From NCBI RefSeq assembly GCF_018860505.1, contig NZ_JAHKPU010000019.1:62001-126000 (forward strand): DNA of 64,000 nucleotides, read 5' to 3'. The stretch comes from Pacificibacter marinus. GTDB lineage: Bacteria; Pseudomonadota; Alphaproteobacteria; Rhodobacterales; Rhodobacteraceae. The notes under the pieces were generated by a model. The model had not been told where the DNA came from. It did not search any database and worked only from the letters and a program-made list of their open reading frames with translations. The translations under genes were made by a program, and so were the position numbers. Positions 50,960 to 64,000 of the stretch are shown piece after piece. Each line of letters starts with the position of its first letter. Position 1 is the stretch's first letter.

Positions 50960-52288
50960 TCACCCAAGGCTTCGCGTCCGAAGCGCATGCGCCTTAGCAC
51001 GAAAGTTCGCACGAACTTCTGCTTCATCAATGCCTATAACCACTCGGTTTTCCATAAGAACACGCCCCGCAACAATCGTATGCACCACATCATCTGCGCG
51101 ACTGGAATAGACCAGTGTCGCGACGGGGTCGTAGACGGGCATCGTGTGTGCCGTGTCCAGATTAACCACAATCACATCCGCCGCCATCCCCTGCGCCAAC
51201 TGACCCGTTTCAGGCCTATTCATCGCCTTTGCCCCTTCAGCCGTTGCCATTTCTAAAACTTGATGTGTCTGCAAGAACTCAGCGTCACCGGTTTTATCTT
51301 TGTGAATGATGCTGGCGAATTTCATTTCTTGGAACATATCGAGCGAATTGTGACTGGCCGGACCATCGGTCGCCAAGCCCACCGTTACGCCGTGATCTTG
51401 TACACATTTCAAATGCAGCGTGCCCGAAGACAGCTTGGCATTGCAGACAGGACAATGGGCGATCTTAGTGCCGGTTTCTGCCAAAATACGTGCGTCCTCA
51501 TCGTCCAGTTGGGTACAATGCGCCGCCGTCACATCGGATTTCAAAAAGCCTAAAGAATGTAACCAACGCACTGGCGACGTGCCGTAGGTCTCTTGGACAT
51601 AAGCGTTTTCTTGCGGTCCTTCGGCAAGATGCGTATGGATCGGAACCCCATGCGCATCGGCCACTTCGCGCACCAACTGATACATTTCAGCACCGCAGGA
51701 ATAGGTCGCATGAGGCGAAAGGCCAATCTGTAAAAGCCCGCCATTGCTATGATGATGTTGAGCCACAAGATCACCGTAGCCATGCAGCGTTTTCCACGAC
51801 CAATCGGTGATCGGTTTATAGATGCCACGATCCGCAAACCCATATCCCAAAGTCGCCCGCAGTGGGATCACTTTGAGCGCTTCAATCTGTGGCTCCACGG
51901 CATAGGCGTCGAAATGTTCGTTGAATGATGTGATGCCCGATTTCACCATTTCGACAAGACCATTCATGCTGGCCCAGTAAAGCGTATCTGGATCAAAATT
52001 TTGCTTCAACGTCCACATGGTGCTTAGCCACTCGAACAGGCGCACATCTTCCAACAGCCCACGCAGCAACATGTTGGACGCGATATGGGTGTGACTGTTG
52101 CAAAAGCCAGGCATGATCACACAATTGTTGGCGTCAATCACTTTGGTTGCGCCGGATATATCAATCGCATCTGCCGCGCCGACTTGGGCGATCTTGGTGC
52201 CCTTGATGGTCACCGTGCCGCGCTCGATGACGTCAGCGTCCCCCATCGGCATCACTGTGCCATTAATAATTGCAATATCGACGGTCAA
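50960..52288 (-). CDS. TrzA/AtzB-type amidohydrolase (deaminase or dechlorinase-like)
   Basis: 442 residues from a TTG start (AGGG upstream). The metal site of the subtype III amidohydrolases is complete: CNSHTHIASNM (HxH), HTHLAEGPQE, TAAHCTQLDDED and GLATDGPASHNSLDM. Relatives deaminate or dehalogenate N-heterocycles, for example S-adenosylhomocysteine, cytosine, guanine or triazines. It lies 99 bases after the aldehyde dehydrogenase gene, beyond a hairpin, as the ninth and last gene of the minus-strand catabolic run. It is one of two such enzymes in this operon (the other at 58282), which share only the family fold. Confidence 0.88.
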   Translation of the reverse strand: MTVDIAIINGTVMPMGDADVIERGTVTIKGTKIAQVGAADAIDISGATKVIDANNCVIMPGFCNSHTHIASNMLLRGLLEDVRLFEWLSTMWTLKQNFDPDTLYWASMNGLVEMVKSGITSFNEHFDAYAVEPQIEALKVIPLRATLGYGFADRGIYKPITDWSWKTLHGYGDLVAQHHHSNGGLLQIGLSPHATYSCGAEMYQLVREVADAHGVPIHTHLAEGPQENAYVQETYGTSPVRWLHSLGFLKSDVTAAHCTQLDDEDARILAETGTKIAHCPVCNAKLSSGTLHLKCVQDHGVTVGLATDGPASHNSLDMFQEMKFASIIHKDKTGDAEFLQTHQVLEMATAEGAKAMNRPETGQLAQGMAADVIVVNLDTAHTMPVYDPVATLVYSSRADDVVHTIVAGRVLMENRVVIGIDEAEVRANFRAKAHALRTRSLG

Positions 52289-52387: not shown

Positions 52388-53896
52388 TTAAACCATCATA
52401 CAAACAGTCTTATTTTCCAGATAGTTGTCCAACCCCAAGGCGCCGTTTTCAACACCCCAACCAGACGCCTTCATGCCACCTTTTGGCAGCTCTGGCGAAA
52501 AGTAACTGTGGCAGTTCACCCAAACCGTCCCTGCGCGCACTTGAGCACTTAAACGATGCGCCCTCGACAGGTCTTGTGTCCACACCGAGGCTGCCAAACC
52601 GTATTGTGTGTCATTTGCCATGGCGACCACCTCATCCGCCTCATCAAACGCAGTAAGCGTGGCCACAGGGCCAAAAACCTCTTCGCGCATCACGGACATC
52701 TCAGGGCGCACATGCGTCAACACAGTCGGGTGATAGAAAGCCGGATAATCCGAATTGATCGCCCCGCCCGTTAAAACTTCGGCGCCAGACGTGCGACCAG
52801 CCTCAACAATCTCAGCCACATGTTTGGCATGGCCTGCGTTGATCAAAGGCCCAAGATCACTGTCAGGATCAAGCCCGTGCCCAAGTCGCATTGACTGCGC
52901 AGATGCCGCAAATTTTTCGGCAAAGCGATCATAAACCCCTCGTTGAACATAAATGCGCGAGGCGGCCACGCAGACCTGTCCCGAATTGGCAAAAATACCG
53001 CGTGCAACCCCCGACACAGCCAGATCAAGGTCGGCATCATTCATGACAATAGCAGGCGATTTTCCACCAAGTTCAAGCGTTAGTTTTTTCAAATTGCCCT
53101 GTGCGGACCCTAACAAACGACGCCCGATGTCTGTCGATCCGGTAAAGGCGACCTTGGCCACATCGGGGTGGACAGCCAGCGCTTCTCCCACCTCATGTCC
53201 AAGCCCCGTCACAAGGTTCACCACACCAACAGGCACCCCTGCTTGTTCGATCAATTCGCACAAACGCACCGCCGTGAGAGAGGTCTCTTCGGCGGGTTTC
53301 AAAATCACAGTACATCCCGCGCAAAGTGCAGGGGCAAGCTTCATCGCAGCCATCAATAAAGGCGAATTCCACGGTACAATCGCCGCGACCACCCCCACGG
53401 GTTCGCGCCGCGTGTAGGCCATAACCTGTTTGCCTGCTGGCGCATATCCGATGGACGGCGTAATGGTCTGGCCCGATAATTTGGTCGCATAGCCTGCGTA
53501 ATAGCGAAACTGCGCGATCGCGCCATTCAGTTCGCCAAATCGAGCTGTGGCATATGTTTTGCCTTGGTCCAGACATTCAAGTTCTGCCAATTCATCTGCA
53601 TGGGCTTCGATCAGGTCAGCGATTTTCCACAAAAGCGCCTGACGCGTGGCCGGTAACATCCCCGCCCAATCTGCACCAATCAGCGCATTATTGGCCGCCT
53701 CAACGGCTTGATCAGCTTCAGCCTGACCCGCGCGTGACAAGCGCGTCAGCAGCTCCCCCGTGGCCGGATCGTGACTATCAAAGGTCTCAGACAAAACATG
53801 CCATTCGCCCCCAATCCAAATCGGTTGAACAGGCCGAGACAGCAAAGCTTTAGCTCCGACAGTTTTAGGCGCGCAGGGTTTTACAGTGAATGTCAT
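52388..53896 (-). CDS. NAD(P)-dependent aldehyde dehydrogenase
   Basis: 502 residues from the ATG at 53896, which overlaps the 2Fe-2S gene by ATGA; the open frame upstream of it is a shadow. Cofactor and active-site motifs are all present: VVAAIVPWNSPLLMAAMKLA, KVAFTGSTDIGRRLLG, TLELGGKSPAIVM (catalytic Glu) and NSGQVCVAASRI (catalytic Cys), and EVFGPVATL. It oxidises an aldehyde to an acid. In this operon the aldehyde probably comes from the GMC oxidoreductase or from the TPP decarboxylase. Confidence 0.93.
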   Translation of the reverse strand: MTFTVKPCAPKTVGAKALLSRPVQPIWIGGEWHVLSETFDSHDPATGELLTRLSRAGQAEADQAVEAANNALIGADWAGMLPATRQALLWKIADLIEAHADELAELECLDQGKTYATARFGELNGAIAQFRYYAGYATKLSGQTITPSIGYAPAGKQVMAYTRREPVGVVAAIVPWNSPLLMAAMKLAPALCAGCTVILKPAEETSLTAVRLCELIEQAGVPVGVVNLVTGLGHEVGEALAVHPDVAKVAFTGSTDIGRRLLGSAQGNLKKLTLELGGKSPAIVMNDADLDLAVSGVARGIFANSGQVCVAASRIYVQRGVYDRFAEKFAASAQSMRLGHGLDPDSDLGPLINAGHAKHVAEIVEAGRTSGAEVLTGGAINSDYPAFYHPTVLTHVRPEMSVMREEVFGPVATLTAFDEADEVVAMANDTQYGLAASVWTQDLSRAHRLSAQVRAGTVWVNCHSYFSPELPKGGMKASGWGVENGALGLDNYLENKTVCMMV

Positions 53897-54357
53897 CGTC
53901 TCGTGTCCTTCATCATATCTCGTGCCAAACGCGCCCCGCGCAAAATGGAATGGTAGCCCGTACAGCGGCAAATATTTCCCTCAAGCGCCTCTTCGATCAT
54001 CGCGTCGTCTGGAAGGCTTTCAACAGACAAAAGCCCCGTGAGGCTCATCATTACTCCGGGTGCGCAATACCCGCATTGAAACCCATTCTCGATCTCCATC
54101 GCTTTAATCAACACCCTGCCAGCAGGTTGCGTTTCAAGTCCGGTGATCGTGGTGATCTCTGCGTGCTCAATTTGCCAGCCCATCACGAGACACGCATTGA
54201 TCGGTGCGCCGTCGCGCAGTACGGTACAAGCGCCGCAGCGTCCGATGTCACAGCCGATTTTCGTAGCCGTCGCTCCAATATCTTCGCGCAGATACGTCAA
54301 GAGCATTGCATCAGCGGCAATCTGGGCCGGCACGCCGTTAAGCTTAAACTGTATCAT
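53893..54357 (-). CDS. xanthine-dehydrogenase family 2Fe-2S subunit
   Basis: 154 residues from the ATG at 54357 that overlaps the upstream stop by ATGA. It carries two clusters: the ferredoxin-type one in GCDIGRCGACTVLRDGAPIN followed by CLV, and the second, helical one in QCGYCAPGVM and NICRCTGYHS. This is the electron-transfer small subunit (CoxS/XdhA type) of the molybdenum enzyme encoded next to it. It passes electrons from the Mo centre to FAD. Confidence 0.95.
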   Translation of the reverse strand: MIQFKLNGVPAQIAADAMLLTYLREDIGATATKIGCDIGRCGACTVLRDGAPINACLVMGWQIEHAEITTITGLETQPAGRVLIKAMEIENGFQCGYCAPGVMMSLTGLLSVESLPDDAMIEEALEGNICRCTGYHSILRGARLARDMMKDTRR

Positions 54358-57300
54358 GCCCGCCCTTCCATCGTCGTAAGGCTGTCCATCATTGTAAGAA
54401 TTGTCTCGGGCGCAATCGGCGTTATCGCGGGCCAAAACCCAATCGCGTCAGCAACGGCATTGGCAATCGCGGGCGTCACGGCACCAACCCCAAGTTCCCC
54501 CGCACCACGCGGCCCGAACGGGTCTTCAGGATCAAGACTTTCATGCGCCGTTACGCGTATATGTTCAGGAGCATCCTTGACGTTTGGCATCATGTAGCTA
54601 TCGAAATTTCGCGCAACAGGATGCCCCGCAAGATAGGGCATATCTTCCGTCAAGGTTGCACCAAGGGCTTGCACCAGACCGCCCTCCATTTGCCCTAGAT
54701 AGGATGCCATATCCATCACGGGGCCCGCCGCCGTATGCATTTCAAAGTCAACGACACGCACCATGCCTGTTATGCGGTTCACAGCAATGCGTGCCAAAGT
54801 TGCCCCAAAGGCAAAGATGAAACGCGCGTTGCCTTTGGGGTAGTTCGTCTTTGGGAAAAGGTAATGTGCTTGAACCGGCGCGACATCTCCCAAGTCGGCG
54901 AATGTCAAACAAGGTGTCTGCGTATTCAAACCAACTTTTGTGATCCCGCCAGGCACGATTGCAAGTCTGTCGCTGGCGCAGTTCAATATCTGTGCAGCCC
55001 GCCCCAAAAGAGCCGCTTGAAACGCTGGCGCCGTTTCTTCGACACCACGCCAAACCACATAACCACCGCGAGCCGCAGTTGTGGACCCGCTATCGGGGGC
55101 GCGCTCTGTATCGCCAATCACAGCGTAAATATCTGCGCGATCGCAGCCTAACTTATCTGAAACAGCGGCATGTAAGGAGGCAATAAGCCCCTGCCCCATT
55201 TCATCCAAACCGCACAAGGCTTGGATTTTTCCATCCTTAAGCGCGAGCCCAAAATCAGCTTCGTCTTCTGGAATAGTCCCCAATCCGTTGCCTTGATAAT
55301 TCAAAGCCATCCCGACACCGGCCCATTCATCTTCTTTGACGGCAAATGGCTGCCACATGCGCGAAGCTGAAGCGGCAGCAAGCATTTCAGGCAAGCGCTC
55401 TGTCGGCGCCACGGCTTGACCAAGCACACCAGGACTGCCAAGCGCGCGAAGATTACGACGGCGCATGTCAACCGGATCGAGGCCACACAGCGCTGCCAGA
55501 CGGTCCATTTGGCACTCAATGGCATAGGTCATCTGATTGGCACCAAAGCCCCGAAACGCCCCGCAAGTGCCGTTGTTGGTATAGGCCAAACGTCCACGTG
55601 CACGATAATGCGCGATCGCGTAAGGCCCAACCACATGCTCCATCGCCGTTTCCAAAACACCAGGCGACAAGGATGCATAGGCCCCACATTCGGACAGCAC
55701 ATCGACGTCTTGCGCGATAACTTTCCCCTGTGCATCGCAACCGGTTTTCATCTTTATCCACATGGGATTGCGCTTGGTTCCAGCCTGTACACTTTCGGCC
55801 CGTGACAGATGCAACCGCACAGGTTGACCAGATTTTTGCGCCAAAAGCGCAAGCGCTGGCTGGACCGTCAATTCGTCTTTGCCGCCAAAAGCCCCGCCCG
55901 TGGGCGATGTGATCACGCGCAAATTTTCTACGGGCATATCCAGAATACGCGAGAGTTGCATTTGATCACGCGCACCATGCTGTCCGCCGGCACAGATTAA
56001 CAAACCCGCACCGTCTGGTGCCGCCCAGCCGCCTTCGGTTTCCATAAAGCCATGCATTTGGTGCGGGGTTACATAGGTCTCTTCAACGATATGTGCCACG
56101 TTCGCCCATGCTTCAGTCCACTCAAGCTCCGTATCGCCACGACCATGAGACACCTCAGTTACCAAATTACCCGTCTCATGAACCAAAGGCGTGTCAGGCA
56201 TCAAAGCGGCGCGCGCCTCTGTGACGACAGGTAAATCTTCATAGGTGACTTTGATCAGCGACAAGGCTTTGGATGCAGTGGCCTCATCGACAGCAGCGAC
56301 AGCCGCGACAGGATCACCAGTGTAGCGCACTTTATCAGCGCATAAGGCTGGCTGGTCTTGAAACACGATGCCGAACCCGTTCAACCCTTTGATATCACGA
56401 TGCGTCACCACGGCCTTTACGCCAGACAAAGCCTCGGCTTTTGATGTATCAATCTCCAAGATACGCGCATGAGGTCGCCCCGCGCGAAGAATACGCCCGA
56501 CCAACATCTGCGCCTCACGTTTATCCGTGAGATAGGTCAGTTTTCCACGCACTTTCGCGGGCATATCAGGGCGCGTGTTCCAACGTTCCTGTCCTGCATT
56601 GCGCGACAATTCCGTCAACTCAGGTAGGGGCATCTTTGTGGGGCGGCGGGTTGTTTTGTGCAGCGGTACGTCTGGCGCACCAAACAGCCCCGTAACAAGC
56701 CCCGCTGCCGCCACACGTTTGCGGTAGCTTGCCGTTCGAAAGGCACAGTCAGGGGCGAAAATTTCTGCTCTCATGCGGTGTCGTAAATCAGTCCGATCAA
56801 CATCTTCTAGCGTTTGTCTCAACAACCACGCTTCAGTTTCATGCAATCTTTGCGGTGGTGTAGCACCGCCACCCACAGCCAAACGCAGGCCTGATATTTG
56901 ACCATCCAGCACCGACATCATCCCAGCCGATGCGATAATAGATGCTGTAAAAGCCTGTCTCAAACCGACTTTTCGCCATGTGCTTTTAGGTTTATTATCT
57001 TCAAGCGGCTGCAAGGTAAGCGACAAAATAATCCCAAAAGGCGCGTTCAAATATTCCAAGACGCTCATAGCGCCCTCGGTCGTTTCGACCACAGCGTCCA
57101 AAGCGATCAACGCGGGAATAAGACAGCCTTTGCCCCAAGCGAGATTGCCCCCCAAAGTGGCCAAACGCCGAACATTCGGCGCAGCCACATCAGCACAAGC
57201 CTTGGACAAAAGCGGGATATTGGCGTGCCGGATGTCTTCGAGTGGCGTGCCTGCACCGATTGTAAGCCCTTGAATACCTTTGGGGATCAAATGGCCGATG

Positions 57301-57434
57301 GGCACATATTGTTCGGGTGGTGTTTGGCCTTGAGAGAACTCCAATTGAAAACCGGAGCCCCCCGCAACGGCAACGCCCCCTGTCGCAATCAGCTTGGCAG
57401 CCTCTTTCAAACTATCAGGCCGCGTGATTTTCAT
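54354..57434 (-). CDS. xanthine-dehydrogenase-like fusion of FAD and molybdopterin domains
   Basis: 1026 residues from the ATG at 57434, overlapping the upstream stop by ATGA. Residues 1-265 are a CoxM-type FAD domain (ATLGGNLAWGKG). Residues about 285-1020 are a CoxL/XdhB-type molybdopterin domain with QMHGFMETEGGWA, GGAFGGKDEL, GTCGAFRGFGANQMTYA and the catalytic Glu in GPRGAGELGVGA. Most relatives have these as two separate subunits. The RGFG form of the cofactor loop belongs to the purine and N-heterocycle hydroxylases rather than CO dehydrogenase. The substrate is probably a purine, pteridine, pyridine or related ring. No XdhC-type maturation gene is in the window. Confidence 0.92.
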   Translation of the reverse strand: MKITRPDSLKEAAKLIATGGVAVAGGSGFQLEFSQGQTPPEQYVPIGHLIPKGIQGLTIGAGTPLEDIRHANIPLLSKACADVAAPNVRRLATLGGNLAWGKGCLIPALIALDAVVETTEGAMSVLEYLNAPFGIILSLTLQPLEDNKPKSTWRKVGLRQAFTASIIASAGMMSVLDGQISGLRLAVGGGATPPQRLHETEAWLLRQTLEDVDRTDLRHRMRAEIFAPDCAFRTASYRKRVAAAGLVTGLFGAPDVPLHKTTRRPTKMPLPELTELSRNAGQERWNTRPDMPAKVRGKLTYLTDKREAQMLVGRILRAGRPHARILEIDTSKAEALSGVKAVVTHRDIKGLNGFGIVFQDQPALCADKVRYTGDPVAAVAAVDEATASKALSLIKVTYEDLPVVTEARAALMPDTPLVHETGNLVTEVSHGRGDTELEWTEAWANVAHIVEETYVTPHQMHGFMETEGGWAAPDGAGLLICAGGQHGARDQMQLSRILDMPVENLRVITSPTGGAFGGKDELTVQPALALLAQKSGQPVRLHLSRAESVQAGTKRNPMWIKMKTGCDAQGKVIAQDVDVLSECGAYASLSPGVLETAMEHVVGPYAIAHYRARGRLAYTNNGTCGAFRGFGANQMTYAIECQMDRLAALCGLDPVDMRRRNLRALGSPGVLGQAVAPTERLPEMLAAASASRMWQPFAVKEDEWAGVGMALNYQGNGLGTIPEDEADFGLALKDGKIQALCGLDEMGQGLIASLHAAVSDKLGCDRADIYAVIGDTERAPDSGSTTAARGGYVVWRGVEETAPAFQAALLGRAAQILNCASDRLAIVPGGITKVGLNTQTPCLTFADLGDVAPVQAHYLFPKTNYPKGNARFIFAFGATLARIAVNRITGMVRVVDFEMHTAAGPVMDMASYLGQMEGGLVQALGATLTEDMPYLAGHPVARNFDSYMMPNVKDAPEHIRVTAHESLDPEDPFGPRGAGELGVGAVTPAIANAVADAIGFWPAITPIAPETILTMMDSLTTMEGRA

Positions 57435-58270
57435 GCCGCCTCCGGCGTTGTTGTTCCGAAGGTTAAGCCTTTTTGTTTCAACCATCGCCGATAAGCGACC
57501 GAGGAACTGTCGGCACGCGTCGGGATTTCAGCACGCGCTTCAAGTGGCAAAAGCCGCGGGCGCTGGTTTTCAACGATGATCCTGTCTTGCAAAAAGATCA
57601 CCTGCTCAAACCGCAACAGTTGGGTATGGCTGGCCTCTTGATCGGTCAGATACATCACAGGGATCGCGCGCACTTCATCTTCGTCTATTGGGTGAATAAA
57701 CAGCGCGATGGCATCTTCAACTCCACCACTGTCCGGCACCACACGGTAAAGCATCACAACAAAGGGCGACGGCACCCGATAGGTAAGCTGCGCGAACTCG
57801 CCATCCGGACGGGTGGTCGTCATCTGGGGTTGGAAAAACTTGCAATTGGTTGCCCAGACCTCATCCACGTCATGGCGGATTTCAGATTTATAACTCAGCA
57901 CTTCTGTATGAGGCTCAGAGCCCAAAATATCCGCATGAACAAAGGGGAAATGCGCCATGTCGAGAAAGTTTTCCACGACCCGCAATCCAGAAGCCCGCAT
58001 TTTGACCCAGCCACACGGAACGAAACGGCGACCAGTCTCTTGGCTTTCTGCAATATCAAAAATCTCTTTGTTCGGTGTGCCCAATGTGGTCCAAAGCACC
58101 CCAAACTTTTCACGCACTGGCAAATCTCGACCATCGTGAACCACCTTGTGGCCCGGACCGACGGTAATAGGGTGGCCAAGCAATTTGGTGTCTTGTGCAC
58201 GATCCAAATCTGTCGCAGTCGCAACAGCATACCAGTCATTAAGCGCCACAGGATCTTGGGTGCCAGCCAT
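57431..58270 (-). CDS. ring-hydroxylating oxygenase alpha-like protein lacking the Rieske cluster region
   Basis: 279 residues from the ATG at 58270 (AGGAG six bases before it). The catalytic part keeps the mononuclear iron motif D-x2-H-x4-H in ENFLDMAHFPFVH, and FLQDRIIVENQRP near the C-terminus, as in vanillate or toluenesulfonate oxygenases. The N-terminus begins like the family (ALNDWYAVATATDLDRAQDT) and resumes at DLPVREKFGVLWTTLG. The 55-60 residues between, which should hold the Rieske CxH and CxxH pairs, are missing; the only Cys residues are in VPCGW and TNCKFF. The frame is intact, so this is not a simple frameshift. It could use an external electron donor or do a different reaction. 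Confidence 0.8.
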   Translation of the reverse strand: MAGTQDPVALNDWYAVATATDLDRAQDTKLLGHPITVGPGHKVVHDGRDLPVREKFGVLWTTLGTPNKEIFDIAESQETGRRFVPCGWVKMRASGLRVVENFLDMAHFPFVHADILGSEPHTEVLSYKSEIRHDVDEVWATNCKFFQPQMTTTRPDGEFAQLTYRVPSPFVVMLYRVVPDSGGVEDAIALFIHPIDEDEVRAIPVMYLTDQEASHTQLLRFEQVIFLQDRIIVENQRPRLLPLEARAEIPTRADSSSVAYRRWLKQKGLTFGTTTPEAA

Positions 58271-58281
58271 CTTTTTCTCCT

Positions 58282-59652
58282 TTAGTCCGTCCATTGCGTC
58301 GTCCCGCCACCATTGGCATCCAACCACGTTTGGCGACGCTGAAAATGCCCCGGAGCCAGACGGGAAACACGATCAATAATTTCAGACATATCGCCAGACA
58401 CAAGGCGCCCGTCGTCGACACAGATCTCACCGTTGACCATCGTCATTTTGACATCGCCGCCTTTGACGGCATGGACAAGATTGTGTTGTAAATTAAACCA
58501 ACGCCCGTCTGGGAAAAATGGAGTCATGCGTGGTGATCGACCATCTACGGCAATGATGTCCGCTTTTTTACCCACTTCTAAAGACCCCGTGATTTTGTCT
58601 AAGCCCACGGCCTTGGCCCCCAAACAAGTCGCCATTTCCAACACAGACCAACTGTCCATCGCAGCCGCATCCAGTTCGCGCAGCTTGCCTTTGAGAGATG
58701 CAGTTTTCATCTCTTCAAACATGTCAAAGTTGTTATTTTCTTTTTCGCCATCGGTGCCAATGCCAACAGGAATACCGGCGGCAAGCATTTCTTTGATGGG
58801 CGCAATCCCTGAGGCCAATTTCATATTCGATATAGGGTTATGCGCCACAGAGACGCTGTAATCGGCAACCATTTCTATCTCGTCTTGCGAGAACCAAACC
58901 GCATGCGCGAACATCGCCAAGGGGGTCTCAAAGAACCCAAGATCGCGGAACACCTCCATCGGTTTTTTTCCGTAACGTGTTTGGTATTCGGCCAGTTCGA
59001 TTTCAGCTTCAGAGCAATGCGTATGAAACGGTACATTGTATTTTTTCGACATATCAATGGCGCGCTGTTGGGCGGGCTCATCGGCGTAGAAAAGATGTTC
59101 TAAACCGACCCAAACATTCACACGCCCCTGCGCCTTACCATTCCAACGTTCAATCAACCCTTCGTTCATATCAAGTGTGTCGAAATAGTTGTAATCAGGA
59201 TGTTCCCCAACATAAGGCACTGCAATCAAACGATTACCAAGAACTTCGCAAGCCCGTGCAGATCCATCCATATGACGCCACATGTCAACGATTGTTGTCG
59301 TGCCGCCCAACAGGCTTTCGGCGTAGGCAAGGTAACTTGCCGCCTCGGCTTCTTCGGGCAAAAGGACACGGTGCATAGGGTTGATATGCTGCGCCAGCCA
59401 ATCCCAGACAGGCAAATGTTCAGCTGTACCGCGCAGGAAGCCTGAATGCGCATGCGCGTTGATCAACCCTGGCATCAAAACAGCTTTGCCCAGATTTTTG
59501 ACAGGGACGTTCGGGTTGTTGGCAATCACTTCGGTTTTTGGGCCAATGGCGGTAATCTCATCGCCCTTCACGAAAATCGCCGCATCTGTCAGCGTTTCGC
59601 GCGTTGCATTCATTGTTACAATGGCATCGGCAGTCAAAATTAGGTCGCTCAT
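58282..59652 (-). CDS. TrzA/AtzA-like amidohydrolase
   Basis: 456 residues of the subtype III amidohydrolase fold. Metal and active residues are visible: INAHAHSGFLRG (HxH), FHTHCSEAEIEL, FAHAVWFSQDEIE, and GIGTDGEKENNNFDMFEEMK (metal Asp). The family covers guanine, cytosine, S-adenosylhomocysteine and triazine deaminases and dechlorinases. Its start overlaps the GMC gene's stop by ATGA and its stop is 11 bases before the Rieske-less oxygenase gene. It probably removes an amino group from the ring substrate of this operon. Confidence 0.9.
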   Translation of the reverse strand: MSDLILTADAIVTMNATRETLTDAAIFVKGDEITAIGPKTEVIANNPNVPVKNLGKAVLMPGLINAHAHSGFLRGTAEHLPVWDWLAQHINPMHRVLLPEEAEAASYLAYAESLLGGTTTIVDMWRHMDGSARACEVLGNRLIAVPYVGEHPDYNYFDTLDMNEGLIERWNGKAQGRVNVWVGLEHLFYADEPAQQRAIDMSKKYNVPFHTHCSEAEIELAEYQTRYGKKPMEVFRDLGFFETPLAMFAHAVWFSQDEIEMVADYSVSVAHNPISNMKLASGIAPIKEMLAAGIPVGIGTDGEKENNNFDMFEEMKTASLKGKLRELDAAAMDSWSVLEMATCLGAKAVGLDKITGSLEVGKKADIIAVDGRSPRMTPFFPDGRWFNLQHNLVHAVKGGDVKMTMVNGEICVDDGRLVSGDMSEIIDRVSRLAPGHFQRRQTWLDANGGGTTQWTD

Positions 59653-61172
59653 GCGTCCTCCAATATAAATGTTGCGGCACGTTCACCGATCATCGTGACA
59701 GGCGCGTGGGTGTGGCACGCAGGGATTTCGGGAATGACAGAAGCGTCCGCGACCCAGAGACCGCGAACGCCTTTGACGCCCAACCGAGGGGAAACGGGGG
59801 CATCATCACGAGAGCCCATTTGGGCTGTTCCGCAACAGTGAAAAAAGGTGGAACAAGAGCGCCGCACAAAGGTCTCAAAGTCATCAGATCGCAGTGGCGC
59901 GACATGATCTTTGAAAAAGGGGGCAAACCCCGTTGAGGCGACCATATCCATAAGAAACTCAACACCACGGACGAGGGCCGCCAAATCACGCGGATCACCA
60001 AGTAAGTTGGGTTGAATGTCTAACGGCGCAGTGGGAGACGCAGCGTTCAGGCGTATCTGGCCCTTAGAATGCGACCGCATCACACCAAGCCCAATGGCAA
60101 AAATGTCGTCCCCATCCAAGTTATACTGATCCCAAAGCGCTGGCGTCGCAGACCGCCCTTGGACAGGAAACGCCAAAAGATCGGCTTGGGCAAGCGCGTC
60201 ATCAGATTTCCAAATCGTCAACGTCCCCCCGCCGTTGCCCACCATTTCTCCAAGCGGCGCTGAGGCACGAAAGTTCAATGCGCGCAGCAAAGGGTGGTCT
60301 TGAAGGTTCTGTCCAATGGCATCGGCTTTAAGTTTGACCGGCAGGCCCAAACGCGCCAATTCTGTCTCTGGTCCAATCCCAGACAACATCAAAAGACGCG
60401 GCGTCTCCAGTGCCCCAGCAGATAAAATCACGCCACATTGCGCTGTGAGATGCGCCTCGCCGTCTGGACCACTCACCGCAACACCTGATGTGCGATCTCC
60501 ATCGAATGTCAGATAAAGCGCAAGAGTTTCGGTCAATACAGTCAAACGGTCAGAGGCAATAATCGGCAAAAGATAGCCCTCAGCCGAAGTATGCCGTCGC
60601 CCCGCGCCATCAATATTGAAATTCGCTAACCCCACACCAAAAGGTTCGGGGCCATTCGGGTCATCGACAAGCGGCAGCCCCATCGCGGCACCGCCTTTGA
60701 GCATGGCTTGCGTTAGGGGATGATCTGGATTTGGGCGGGTGATTTTAAGCGGGCCTTCGCTGCCACGTAAATCGCTTGCCCCCTCCGACCAGTTTTCAGA
60801 CGCCTTGAACGCAGGCAAACAGTCTTGCCAACTCCAGCCTGCCGCGCGCGCATTCCAACGTTCATAATCAGCAGGCACACCTCGATACCACATCATCGCA
60901 TTGGTCGCAGAAGACCCGCCCAAGGCCTTGCCCCGCGGGATCGCTATCTCGCGGTCAAGGATGCGATTGGTCGGGGCATAATGATGCCCCCAATCCCATG
61001 CTCCACTTTGCAGCCCGAACCATTTAGACGGATCTTCGATATCGGAAATACCAAAGCTAGACCGCCCAGATTCAACCACAGCAACATCCGCGCCCGCATC
61101 ATGAAGGCGCCGCGCAACCGCAGAGCCCCCTGATCCAGACCCAATGATGATATAGTCAAAGCTGGTTTTCAT
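59649..61172 (-). CDS. GMC-family FAD oxidoreductase (choline dehydrogenase-like)
   Basis: 507 residues. FAD-binding N-terminus DYIIIGSGSGGSAVARRL followed by VVESG, then PRGKALGGSSATNAMMWYRG and VILSAGALETPRLLMLSGIG (GMC signature 2), and the C-terminal active site FFHCCGTAQMG, GLWVADASVIPEIPACH. It oxidises an alcohol to an aldehyde. The nearby aldehyde dehydrogenase could finish the oxidation to an acid. AGGAT lies before the ATG. Confidence 0.92.
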   Translation of the reverse strand: MKTSFDYIIIGSGSGGSAVARRLHDAGADVAVVESGRSSFGISDIEDPSKWFGLQSGAWDWGHHYAPTNRILDREIAIPRGKALGGSSATNAMMWYRGVPADYERWNARAAGWSWQDCLPAFKASENWSEGASDLRGSEGPLKITRPNPDHPLTQAMLKGGAAMGLPLVDDPNGPEPFGVGLANFNIDGAGRRHTSAEGYLLPIIASDRLTVLTETLALYLTFDGDRTSGVAVSGPDGEAHLTAQCGVILSAGALETPRLLMLSGIGPETELARLGLPVKLKADAIGQNLQDHPLLRALNFRASAPLGEMVGNGGGTLTIWKSDDALAQADLLAFPVQGRSATPALWDQYNLDGDDIFAIGLGVMRSHSKGQIRLNAASPTAPLDIQPNLLGDPRDLAALVRGVEFLMDMVASTGFAPFFKDHVAPLRSDDFETFVRRSCSTFFHCCGTAQMGSRDDAPVSPRLGVKGVRGLWVADASVIPEIPACHTHAPVTMIGERAATFILEDA

Positions 61173-61179
61173 ATCCTGC

Positions 61180-61788
61180 TCAATTGTGCTCGGAAGGGCC
61201 CATTATCGTGATCCCTTCGGTTTTCTCGACATGGCGTACAAAGATGTATTTGTCTTCACGCCCATCAGAATGTTTGCGCTTGATTTCAGGCTGCACAGTG
61301 CCCGAAACCTTGGCGACAACGACATAAGGAACCTCAGCCTTCAGGCCCGCTTCACAATGTGCGTCGAATTCTTCCACCGTTGTTGCGGTGAACGCCTGAT
61401 CGATACCTGAAGCACGCGCGATCCCCGCAAGATCGACACGCCCCGACGCGGTATGCGTCTTGGGTCCACCAATCGATTGATATTGCTCGTTATCCCAAAC
61501 AACGACAAACAGGTTTTTCGGCTGCTCGTTGCCTAAAGTCGCAAGAATACCCAAATTAAACAAAAGCCCACCATCAGTGTCGAGCGATACAATTTGGCGG
61601 TCAGGTAGACCTGCGGCCAGTCCGAAAGCTTCAGGGGTCACACAGCCAAGCTGCTGCTGGAACAGGGACGCTTCGCGCATATGCGGCGCTGCATTGTACC
61701 ATTCATCAACGGAGGCACCGAGTGATAAAATCACCAATTCATCAGACAGGCGCGCTGCCAATTTGGTCATACAATCAAATCGTTTCAT
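61180..61788 (-). CDS. TPP-dependent decarboxylase, C-terminal (TPP-binding) subunit
   Basis: 202 residues that match the cofactor-binding half of sulfopyruvate/phosphonopyruvate decarboxylases (ComE type). The TPP-metal motif runs from SLDTDGGLLFNLGILATLG to VVVWDNEQYQSIG. Together with the N-terminal subunit encoded just upstream it should form one active site at their interface. It decarboxylates a 2-oxo acid to an aldehyde, which fits the aldehyde dehydrogenase in this operon. The substrate need not carry a sulfo or phospho group. Confidence 0.87.
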   Translation of the reverse strand: MKRFDCMTKLAARLSDELVILSLGASVDEWYNAAPHMREASLFQQQLGCVTPEAFGLAAGLPDRQIVSLDTDGGLLFNLGILATLGNEQPKNLFVVVWDNEQYQSIGGPKTHTASGRVDLAGIARASGIDQAFTATTVEEFDAHCEAGLKAEVPYVVVAKVSGTVQPEIKRKHSDGREDKYIFVRHVEKTEGITIMGPSEHN

Positions 61789-62288
61789 CGTACGATACTC
61801 CCAGATAGGGCCACAGCTGTGTGATAGTAGGAGGCATAAGCCAGTTCATAGGCATCGACGATGGCCTGTTCGATGCGTTCCTCTTCGCGCTCAACCGCAT
61901 AGGGAATGCGCAGCGCTTTAAGAACCGGCTCCATTGTGGTGGCGTGCGGTACAGCCCACCAATTGTTTTCGCCCATATCCCCACGGTAGCTCATAAGCAT
62001 CACAACCGGAATGCCAGCCCCAAGGCCCATTCGCGCCAAAGGCTCAACTGACGCCCGCAGGCCGGAATTTTCCATGACCAATGCTGCACGCTGTCCGGAC
62101 AAAAATATACCGCCGCAAATCGCAGCGCCTTCGCCCTCATTCGTCACCTGAATCGTGCGGATATCTGGATCAGCATCGAGTGCGGGGTAAAGTTCTTTGA
62201 ACAAACTATCGGGGAGATAACACACCAGCGTCACCCCTGCCCGTTTCAGCCCGCGGATCACTGCATCGACGGCACTTTGTTTCATCAT
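61785..62288 (-). CDS. TPP-dependent decarboxylase, N-terminal (PYR) subunit
   Basis: 167 residues. It resembles ComD-type subunits of sulfopyruvate decarboxylase: GLKRAGVTLVCYLPDSLFKE, catalytic Glu in QVTNEGEGAAICGGIFLSG, MENSGLRASVEPLA and RGDMGENNWW. The stop overlaps the start of the partner by ATGA. GGAGGGA lies directly before two possible ATGs (62288 and 62285). It is the first gene of the operon and an inverted repeat sits just upstream. Confidence 0.87.
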   Translation of the reverse strand: MMKQSAVDAVIRGLKRAGVTLVCYLPDSLFKELYPALDADPDIRTIQVTNEGEGAAICGGIFLSGQRAALVMENSGLRASVEPLARMGLGAGIPVVMLMSYRGDMGENNWWAVPHATTMEPVLKALRIPYAVEREEERIEQAIVDAYELAYASYYHTAVALSGSIVR

Positions 62289-62386: not shown

Positions 62387-63322
62387 CTAGTCGCGTGCAG
62401 TTTCGCGCATCGCTTCAAGAGTAGACGTCAAAACATCCGCCAGCGCCTGAGCCGCTTCAGACACTTCACCTTTCGGGCGCGACACAAGCGTCAGCCGCCT
62501 TAAACTTAAACCAGGATCAGACAAAGGAATAAAAGTCAGTTGTCCGCGCGCAATCTCGGCCTGCACTCCCATTTTGGTCTGCAAAATAGTGCCTAAACCA
62601 CGGGTCGCGAGATCAATCATCAAGCCGATAGAGTTGGTTTTTGTCCGACGTGAAAATTCAACAAAAGCCCCAGAAAACATTTGCTCGACTGAACTTCCAA
62701 GCGTCAAAGACCCGTCAGACAGGATGACCCGTTCGCCTGAAAGATCGTAACTTTTCAACTTGCCACGCAACTTCGTAAGCGGGCTGCCGGGGGAGACCAA
62801 GACTCCAAGCGGCAGCGAAATTGATGTCAATCTACGCGCATTACGCGGCACGCGCACATCAAATGCTAGCGCGAGATCCGCCTCACCTTGATGCACCAAA
62901 TCAACCGCATTTTGTGACCCCACAACCTGTATATCGACACTGATTTCTGGATGGCGCACCCAAAAACCGGCAAGCACATCTGTCAGAATCCCTCGCGACG
63001 CACTTTCAATGACAGCTAAAGTGACCGTGCCACGGCGCAGCCCTTGCAGGTCACCGATTTCCGTCACAGCGCGGTTCATTTCCCCCGTTGATTGCTTGAT
63101 GTGATGCTCAAGCAATTCCCCTGCAGAGGTCAGCCGCAATCGTTGTTTGGTGCGGTCGAACAGAGGTGTGCCAAGGTCTTCTTCAAGTTGCTTGATCGAA
63201 CGAGAAATTGAAGACGGCGCAACATTCAACGTCAATGCCGTCTGACGGATGGACCCCAAGCGGGCCACCAAAGAAAAGTGGTAGACGCGAGACGAAACAA
63301 GACCGAGGCGATGTAAATCCAA
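62387..63322 (-). CDS. LysR-family transcriptional regulator
   Basis: 311 residues from a TTG start with AGGAAAG just before it. N-terminal winged helix-turn-helix: VYHFSLVARLGSIRQTALTL, NVAPSSISRSIKQLEEDLG (residues about 14-48), then a LysR effector domain (GTVTLAVIESASRGILTDVL). It lies 98 bases before the catabolic operon on the same strand, the gap carrying the inverted repeat, so it probably regulates that operon though it is not divergent from it. Confidence 0.9.
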   Translation of the reverse strand: MDLHRLGLVSSRVYHFSLVARLGSIRQTALTLNVAPSSISRSIKQLEEDLGTPLFDRTKQRLRLTSAGELLEHHIKQSTGEMNRAVTEIGDLQGLRRGTVTLAVIESASRGILTDVLAGFWVRHPEISVDIQVVGSQNAVDLVHQGEADLALAFDVRVPRNARRLTSISLPLGVLVSPGSPLTKLRGKLKSYDLSGERVILSDGSLTLGSSVEQMFSGAFVEFSRRTKTNSIGLMIDLATRGLGTILQTKMGVQAEIARGQLTFIPLSDPGLSLRRLTLVSRPKGEVSEAAQALADVLTSTLEAMRETARD

Positions 63323-63346: not shown

Positions 63347-63967
63347 CTAATGATAGTCTGGAATGCCCGGCATCGTGATGAAACCTGGCAGCAGGCGTAT
63401 TCTGCGCGCCCAAAGACGTAGTGCAGGAAACTCATCATGATCAAGATTAAAATCTCGACTGAGTGCGAAAGCTGGGAACAGCGCGAGGTCAGCCAAACTG
63501 GGTGCATCCCCCGCAACGAAGTTTGCGCCACGCAAAGACTGCCGAGTCAAATGATCGTCCAGAATACGAAACAGCGTTCGCGCCTGCGCACGTAATTCAA
63601 CGACATCCCCCGTCGCATCCAGCAAGGCGACAGCGCGTGCCTGCACCGCAACAGCAAGATCGTCACAAGCGAATCCCAACCAATCCATCATCTGAGCGCG
63701 GTCCTTTGCCTCATCAGGTATGAATCGTTTATCGATATCGTGTTCCGCTACGTAAATTAGGATTGCTGAAAGATTACGCAAAACGAGTGCATTGTCCTCT
63801 AAAATAGGCAGGCGACCCATCGGGTTTAGTTTTAAATACTCAGGGGATTTTTCTTCTGCGCCGGGAAAGGCGTCCACATTGATCAGCTCCAGCGCCACTT
63901 CAGCACAAGACGCGACCAAACGAACCCGATAGCAATTCTCAAAAAGATCATAATTATGTAAAATCAT
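63347..63967 (-). CDS. glutathione S-transferase family protein
   Basis: 206 residues. N-terminal thioredoxin-like half with NYDLFENCYRVRLVASCAEV (no classic Ser/Tyr at the start of helix 1; a Cys sits at residue 12) and LKLNPMGRLPILEDNALVL, where the cis-Pro LP and the ED pair bind glutathione. The C-terminal helical half has FVAGDAPSLADLALFPAFAL. It ends 24 bases before the LysR start on the same strand. Its role in the operon is unclear; glutathione conjugation, isomerisation or dehalogenation are possible. Confidence 0.87.
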   Translation of the reverse strand: MILHNYDLFENCYRVRLVASCAEVALELINVDAFPGAEEKSPEYLKLNPMGRLPILEDNALVLRNLSAILIYVAEHDIDKRFIPDEAKDRAQMMDWLGFACDDLAVAVQARAVALLDATGDVVELRAQARTLFRILDDHLTRQSLRGANFVAGDAPSLADLALFPAFALSRDFNLDHDEFPALRLWARRIRLLPGFITMPGIPDYH

Positions 63968-64000
63968 GTCACGACCTCCAGCTCTTCGATGCTACGTCGT

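Follow-up and report, generated by a model that had tools for sequence, protein, structure and literature searches.

We identified in Pacificibacter marinus a gene (57431-58270) that very probably encodes the mononuclear-iron half of a split NdmC-type Rieske oxygenase, with the Rieske centre carried on a separate protein. The gene lies in a 64,000-nucleotide stretch of contig NZ_JAHKPU010000019.1 (the window), and the missing Rieske centre is most likely supplied by a 222-amino acid protein encoded at 63964-64632. Architecture, clade membership, co-occurrence and complementary loss of motifs, all read from the sequences, argue for this arrangement. The system resembles NdmCDE, the 7-methylxanthine N7-demethylase of Pseudomonas putida CBB5 and the final enzyme in the bacterial breakdown of caffeine.

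The product of the gene is a Rieske-oxygenase catalytic subunit that lacks the Rieske domain and keeps the iron site (Table 1). Pfam assigned VanA_C (71.6 bits) and KshA_C (24.7 bits) and detected no Rieske domain at E<=0.001; at the same threshold, neither this protein nor a second Rieske-less paralogue matched an NCBIfam model. The profile-profile alignment with seven full-length Rieske oxygenases (273 columns, E 4e-49) placed a clean, in-frame gap at a single junction, slightly shorter than the roughly 55 residues that an earlier note on this DNA had claimed. The Rieske and catalytic domains are therefore not in one chain, unlike in an ordinary VanA/TsaM-type two-component oxygenase. The iron-site motif lies in ENFLDMAHFPFVH (residues 100-112 of the 279-amino acid translation of the minus strand); H107 and H112 are presumably the two iron-ligand histidines, D104 the aspartate that in full-length enzymes bridges to the Rieske centre of the neighbouring subunit, and D229 we take to be the third ligand. 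By sequence, the closest solved-structure relatives of the catalytic subunit and the Rieske protein alike are SxtT/GxtA, which also match the catalytic subunit best in structure. The gene starts 11 nt past the stop of the amidohydrolase gene and is preceded by the good ribosome site noted earlier (AAAGGAG, 6 nt upstream of the ATG), and its TGA overlaps the ATG of the next gene as ATGA.

The Rieske-less arrangement is a real conserved design and not a broken gene. CxH...CxxH was absent and the DxxHx4H residues were invariant in 27/27 aligned rows, the target included, which agrees with the earlier view of an intact iron site in a probably functional gene. The 106 extracted rows (102 distinct sequences) all contained DxxHx4H and none the Rieske motif; this total includes L062_5601, a full-length oxygenase that lost its Rieske part to trimming, so the fair count is 105/105. 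Alignment A3 was made from A1 without its four plasmid-record rows, L053 and L061 and with 19 other rows added, and alignment A4 from A2 without three plasmid-record rows. A second Rieske-less gene (L010:15366-16247), 13 kb away, is 54% identical and has the same gap, whereas distant relatives (NdmA, NdmB, HpxD and others) keep the Rieske domain. The sharp bounds of the missing segment would also suit an ordinary full-length Rieske oxygenase gene that had recently suffered a deletion or become a pseudogene, an outcome that the earlier note had allowed for. However, the Rieske motif is equally absent from a 99%-identical copy in Pacificibacter marinus F2R14, and the gene belongs to a single clade with similar operons across orders. 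Because the paralogue and all 105 extracted close relatives share the gap and the iron site is conserved, we regard a deletion mutant as ruled out, its probability being negligible.

The clade sharing the deletion, which the earlier note had proposed to look for, was recovered. Rieske-less rows and NdmC made up one side of a branch both in a 50-row quick tree (SH-aLRT 100; 43 Rieske-less rows comprising chosen loci plus 22 random ones, two NdmC and a Variovorax fusion, with long branches flagged) and in a 25-row careful tree (100/100; 20 hand-picked Rieske-less rows, leaving out the Variovorax fusion and the full-length HpxD and RO_L062). In the careful tree, NdmC and fusion-type relatives formed a weak group (86/74) beside the split type (90/84). 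A tree of Rieske domains separated the stand-alone and NdmD domains from six full-length enzymes (98/94), with NdmD alone at 99/96. As the root was not inferred, the trees do not order fission and fusion; a single origin of the Rieske-less design would fit the sampled tree.

The Rieske partner was found by a genome-wide Rieske search. It had been hidden from the earlier note because the window holds just the last 37 bases of its gene (63964..64000), the rest lying beyond the window end. In this protein Pfam detected no domain other than the Rieske domain, and contig C5 has no second PF00355 match; the genome has nine Rieske matches, in open frames of 129-489 amino acids, none of which is NdmD-sized. 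Adjoining it is a gene for a glutathione S-transferase (GST)-like protein, the equivalent of NdmE. The Rieske-less and Rieske proteins, as we suggest, may be reciprocally degenerate full-length oxygenases, of which one kept the mononuclear iron site and the other the cluster site while losing the iron site; a degenerate catalytic domain in the Rieske protein is indicated by its predicted structure.

The pairing extends well beyond this genome. A search of 295 genomes of the family (E<=1e-10) gave matches in 22. Neighbourhoods came from 20 of these (that of the window and 19 others as 20 stretches, leaving out G033 and G124), giving 21 loci, two of which are overlapping stretches of G046. A stand-alone Rieske gene adjoins a GST gene in 19 loci, and the other two carry an NdmD-like fusion (569 and 586 amino acids) and a GST gene. 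The scan of named genomes yielded 571 relatives, and all named-locus results concern the best 80 of these. The Rieske-less design is common, being present in all 80; weaker relatives may include full-length enzymes. Both the Rieske and the GST gene lie within the stretch in 76 loci, and in 75 of the 76 they are within 1.6 kb of each other (mid to mid). The four exceptions (L076, L083, L091 and L095) have a Rieske homologue elsewhere in the genome (36-46% identity), each adjoining a GST gene. Two paralogues accompanied by the same single Rieske protein were found in five contig pairs of the named set, and a double locus as in the window also occurs in R. tumorigenes. Similar operons are present in Rhodobacterales, Rhizobiales, Acetobacteraceae and one Rhodococcus; in plasmid records of Rhizobium ruizarguesonis and Shinella the three genes are adjacent, and amidohydrolase-like and transporter genes follow downstream. 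Many listed copies are annotated only as ring-hydroxylating dioxygenase alpha subunits.

We also observed a Xanthobacteraceae contig (L127) on which a span of 4.7 kb holds a single Rieske gene, a single GST gene and two Rieske-less genes, these last 60% and 39% identical to the second paralogue. An acylphosphatase gene lies immediately 5' of the Rieske/Rieske-less/GST cassette on a Rhizobium plasmid (L065:8804-9193) and a Shinella plasmid (L068:8919-9188). A Roseicitreum antarcticum plasmid gene (L067:10001-10867) is annotated as a (2Fe-2S)-binding protein despite the absent cluster motif.

The earlier note had argued that electrons must come from outside the chain, which stands, and had offered the neighbouring plant-type 2Fe-2S protein as their source, which does not. 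This protein is in the same operon as catalytic subunit 1, but it resembles a molybdenum-hydroxylase subunit, goes with the molybdenum hydroxylase, and is missing from the gene group of the paralogue and from most small cassettes, which retain the Rieske and GST genes. The stand-alone Rieske protein is the better candidate, and we rejected the 2Fe-2S protein as a highly improbable donor. A protein that is no longer an oxygenase, with its iron or pocket used in a lyase, hydrolase or binding role, would explain both the chain without a Rieske centre and the lack of a linked FNR-type reductase. We consider this very unlikely, as the presumed ligands and bridging aspartate are invariant, the Rieske partner is nearly always present, and NdmC of the same clade is an N-demethylase subunit.

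Several observations weigh against a split oxygenase as proposed here. A linked FNR-type reductase at E<1e-8 was found in 0/80 named loci using three reductase queries (two NdmD, one VanB-type), other reductase types not being sought; a 40-residue reductase match at 9e-6 was the single hit. An NdmD-like reductase (E<=1e-10) was detected in 16 of the 20 family genomes searched, two of them of the fusion type, and thus in 14/18 split-type genomes but not in the other four. Of six genomes checked, five contain a PF00175 match at E<=0.001 and one, G209 (98% complete), does not; no FNR-type reductase was found among the eight neighbours of its split cassette (L059:9049-11318). The Roseicitreum plasmid carries a Rieske-less gene, and a Rieske partner was not detected on the same record at E<=1e-12. 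In sequence-profile alignments only the Rieske portion of the partner matches full-length enzymes, the stand-alone Rieske rows taken on their own lack clade support (60/2), and the substrate is read from neighbouring genes alone.

Because a linked FNR-type reductase was not found and NdmD-like or PF00175 reductases occur elsewhere in most genomes (four PF00175 matches in that of the window), the electron donor is probably a trans-acting, perhaps non-dedicated, carrier. A split oxygenase operating with no FNR-type reductase at all, for example with glutathione via the GST-like protein or with a general ferredoxin, would accommodate the four split-type genomes without an NdmD-like reductase, including the one without any PF00175 match, and the closeness of the Rieske and GST genes. 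The presumed catalytic position of the GST is moreover Cys in 72/97 rows and Ser in 19/97. However, NdmE is described as noncatalytic in PMC10380055, the fusions seen in NdmD and in Variovorax connect the system with an FNR reductase, and most split-type genomes do encode an NdmD-like reductase somewhere, so that we find an enzyme free of any FNR-type reductase unlikely. The Variovorax paradoxus plasmid represents a third architecture (L152:7307-10454), a Rieske-less subunit fused to an FNR/2Fe-2S reductase (604 amino acids) with stand-alone Rieske and GST genes adjoining, which connects the split type with an FNR-type reductase.

For the split oxygenase we propose the following mechanism. The GST-like protein probably joins the catalytic and Rieske proteins, as thought for NdmE in NdmCDE. 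The Rieske protein would replace the neighbouring subunit in the complex, so that electrons, delivered by a reductase or other carrier encoded elsewhere, could cross the interface via the retained bridging aspartate to the iron of the catalytic subunit, which would activate O2. One Rieske/GST pair probably serves both paralogues. A purine-like base may enter through the adjacent BMP-type ABC transporter and be acted on by the co-operonic deaminases.

Table 1. Features of the Rieske-less oxygenase locus (window numbering)
Feature	Position	Strand	Remarks
Rieske-less catalytic subunit 1	57431..58270	-	279 aa; Pfam VanA_C, without Rieske domain
Junction residues 46/47	58130..58135	-	about 50 template residues missing here, including the CxH...CxxH region (profile-profile alignment)
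D104-x2-H107-x4-H112	57935..57961	-	invariant in aligned rows
D229	57584..57586	-	invariant in 27/27 and 40/40 rows
Stand-alone Rieske protein gene	63964..64632 (L010:7965-8633)	-	222 aa; CPHRG...CLYHGW
GST-like protein, NdmE equivalent	63347..63967	-	start overlaps Rieske stop by 4 bases (ATGA)
LysR-type regulator	62387..63322	-	between Rieske/GST pair and catalytic-subunit operon; position kept in several relatives
Two-gene thiamine-diphosphate enzyme	61180..62288	-	sulfopyruvate/phosphonopyruvate-decarboxylase-like, under curated cut-offs
GMC-family oxidoreductase	59649..61172	-	pyridoxine 4-oxidase among its matches
Amidohydrolase	58282..59652	-	nucleobase-deaminase-like, under curated cut-offs; directly upstream of Rieske-less gene
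Molybdenum hydroxylase	54354..57434	-	single chain with FAD and Mo domains; pucD-like 634 bits, cut-off 784
Plant-type xanthine dehydrogenase 2Fe-2S subunit of molybdenum hydroxylase	53893..54357	-	pucE-like 145 bits, cut-off 254
Aldehyde dehydrogenase	52388..53896	-	
Second amidohydrolase	50960..52288	-	

The second paralogue has the BMP-type transporter genes upstream and is flanked by an 8-oxoguanine-deaminase-like amidohydrolase (575.7 bits, above the cut-off of 532) and a guanine-deaminase-like gene (365.7 bits, slightly under the cut-off of 375.4), followed on the opposite strand by an adenosine deaminase gene (271 bits, above 216.6). The activity of NdmC, together with the transporter and deaminase genes and the canonical xanthine dehydrogenase subunit encoded elsewhere, makes an oxidative N-dealkylation of a purine-like base the most likely reaction, and the simplest proposal for the substrate of the second paralogue is 7-methylguanine or 7-methylxanthine. 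The thiamine enzyme, GMC oxidoreductase and aldehyde dehydrogenase nearby suggest that the substrate of the first paralogue has a side chain. We considered pterin or vitamin B6 side-chain catabolism as a possible role of this operon. The thiamine-diphosphate enzyme also occurs near a GMC oxidoreductase and a Rieske-less gene in distant genera, including Rhodococcus (L096). The likely start of the molybdenum hydroxylase, ATG 57434, overlaps the Rieske-less stop. Canonical xanthine dehydrogenase is unlikely as its main role, since XdhB on another contig scores 1170 bits versus 193 for the better window piece. The closest solved structures gave no clear assignment of amidohydrolase substrates, and for cytokinin degradation as the context the literature search returned no supporting paper.

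The split subunits allow a direct test of between-subunit, rather than within-subunit, electron transfer in Rieske oxygenases, because the two look like complementary remnants of one enzyme. The unlinked donor and the purine-type neighbours hint at an uncharacterised base-salvage route. More tentatively, and with considerable doubt, the system could be a widespread modular oxygenase of reciprocally degenerate subunits, in which a shared Rieske/GST module serves exchangeable catalytic subunits, needs no dedicated reductase and acts in the salvage of N-methylated nucleobases, for instance RNA-derived 7-methylguanine (by a deaminase, then N7-demethylation, then xanthine dehydrogenase).

The original NdmCDE study reportedly noted 18 homologous clusters. 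Catalytic subunit 1 is 42% identical to P. putida NdmC, belongs to the same clade and like it lacks the Rieske cluster; the GST-like protein shares 37% identity with NdmE over 205 amino acids, so that both systems have a GST-like third component; and the Rieske protein is 34% identical to the start of NdmD, the Rieske domain being on another polypeptide in both. According to PMC4408171 and PMC10380055, NdmC is devoid of the cluster, an additional Rieske domain is found on NdmD, and the GST-like NdmE has a structural role in a soluble 3:3:3 complex; PMC4408171 also relates that Summers et al. observed ndmCDE-like clusters in Sinorhizobium and Mesorhizobium. We named the P. putida plasmid genes by matching their order to the Pseudomonas ndm cluster table in PMC10380055. 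That record also contains the formaldehyde-detoxification genes frmA/frmB, and the full-length oxygenases ndmA/ndmB accompany the NdmCDE genes, whereas no full-length oxygenase gene stands beside the window system. In the one S. meliloti record, the Rieske-less subunit and GST lie by a BMP-type transporter as in P. marinus, but with a 588-amino acid NdmD-type Rieske-reductase fusion. NdmA/NdmB and HpxD are purine-acting Rieske oxygenases with DxxHx4H that have their own Rieske domain and fall outside the Rieske-less clade, and SxtT/GxtA, unlike the window system, hold both centres on a single chain. Our literature search, covering the available portions of papers including PMC4408171, PMC12445004, PMC10380055 and PMC13237722, gave no account of an NdmC-type enzyme whose Rieske subunit is free-standing. 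Whereas NdmD fuses the Rieske domain to an NADH reductase, the partner here is free-standing and unfused, and the system further differs from NdmCDE by the lack of a linked FNR-type reductase, by two catalytic paralogues beside one Rieske/GST pair and by another gene neighbourhood. The fully split form, with the Rieske centre as a free subunit, is thus distinct from NdmCDE and is a variant of the known NdmC-type design.
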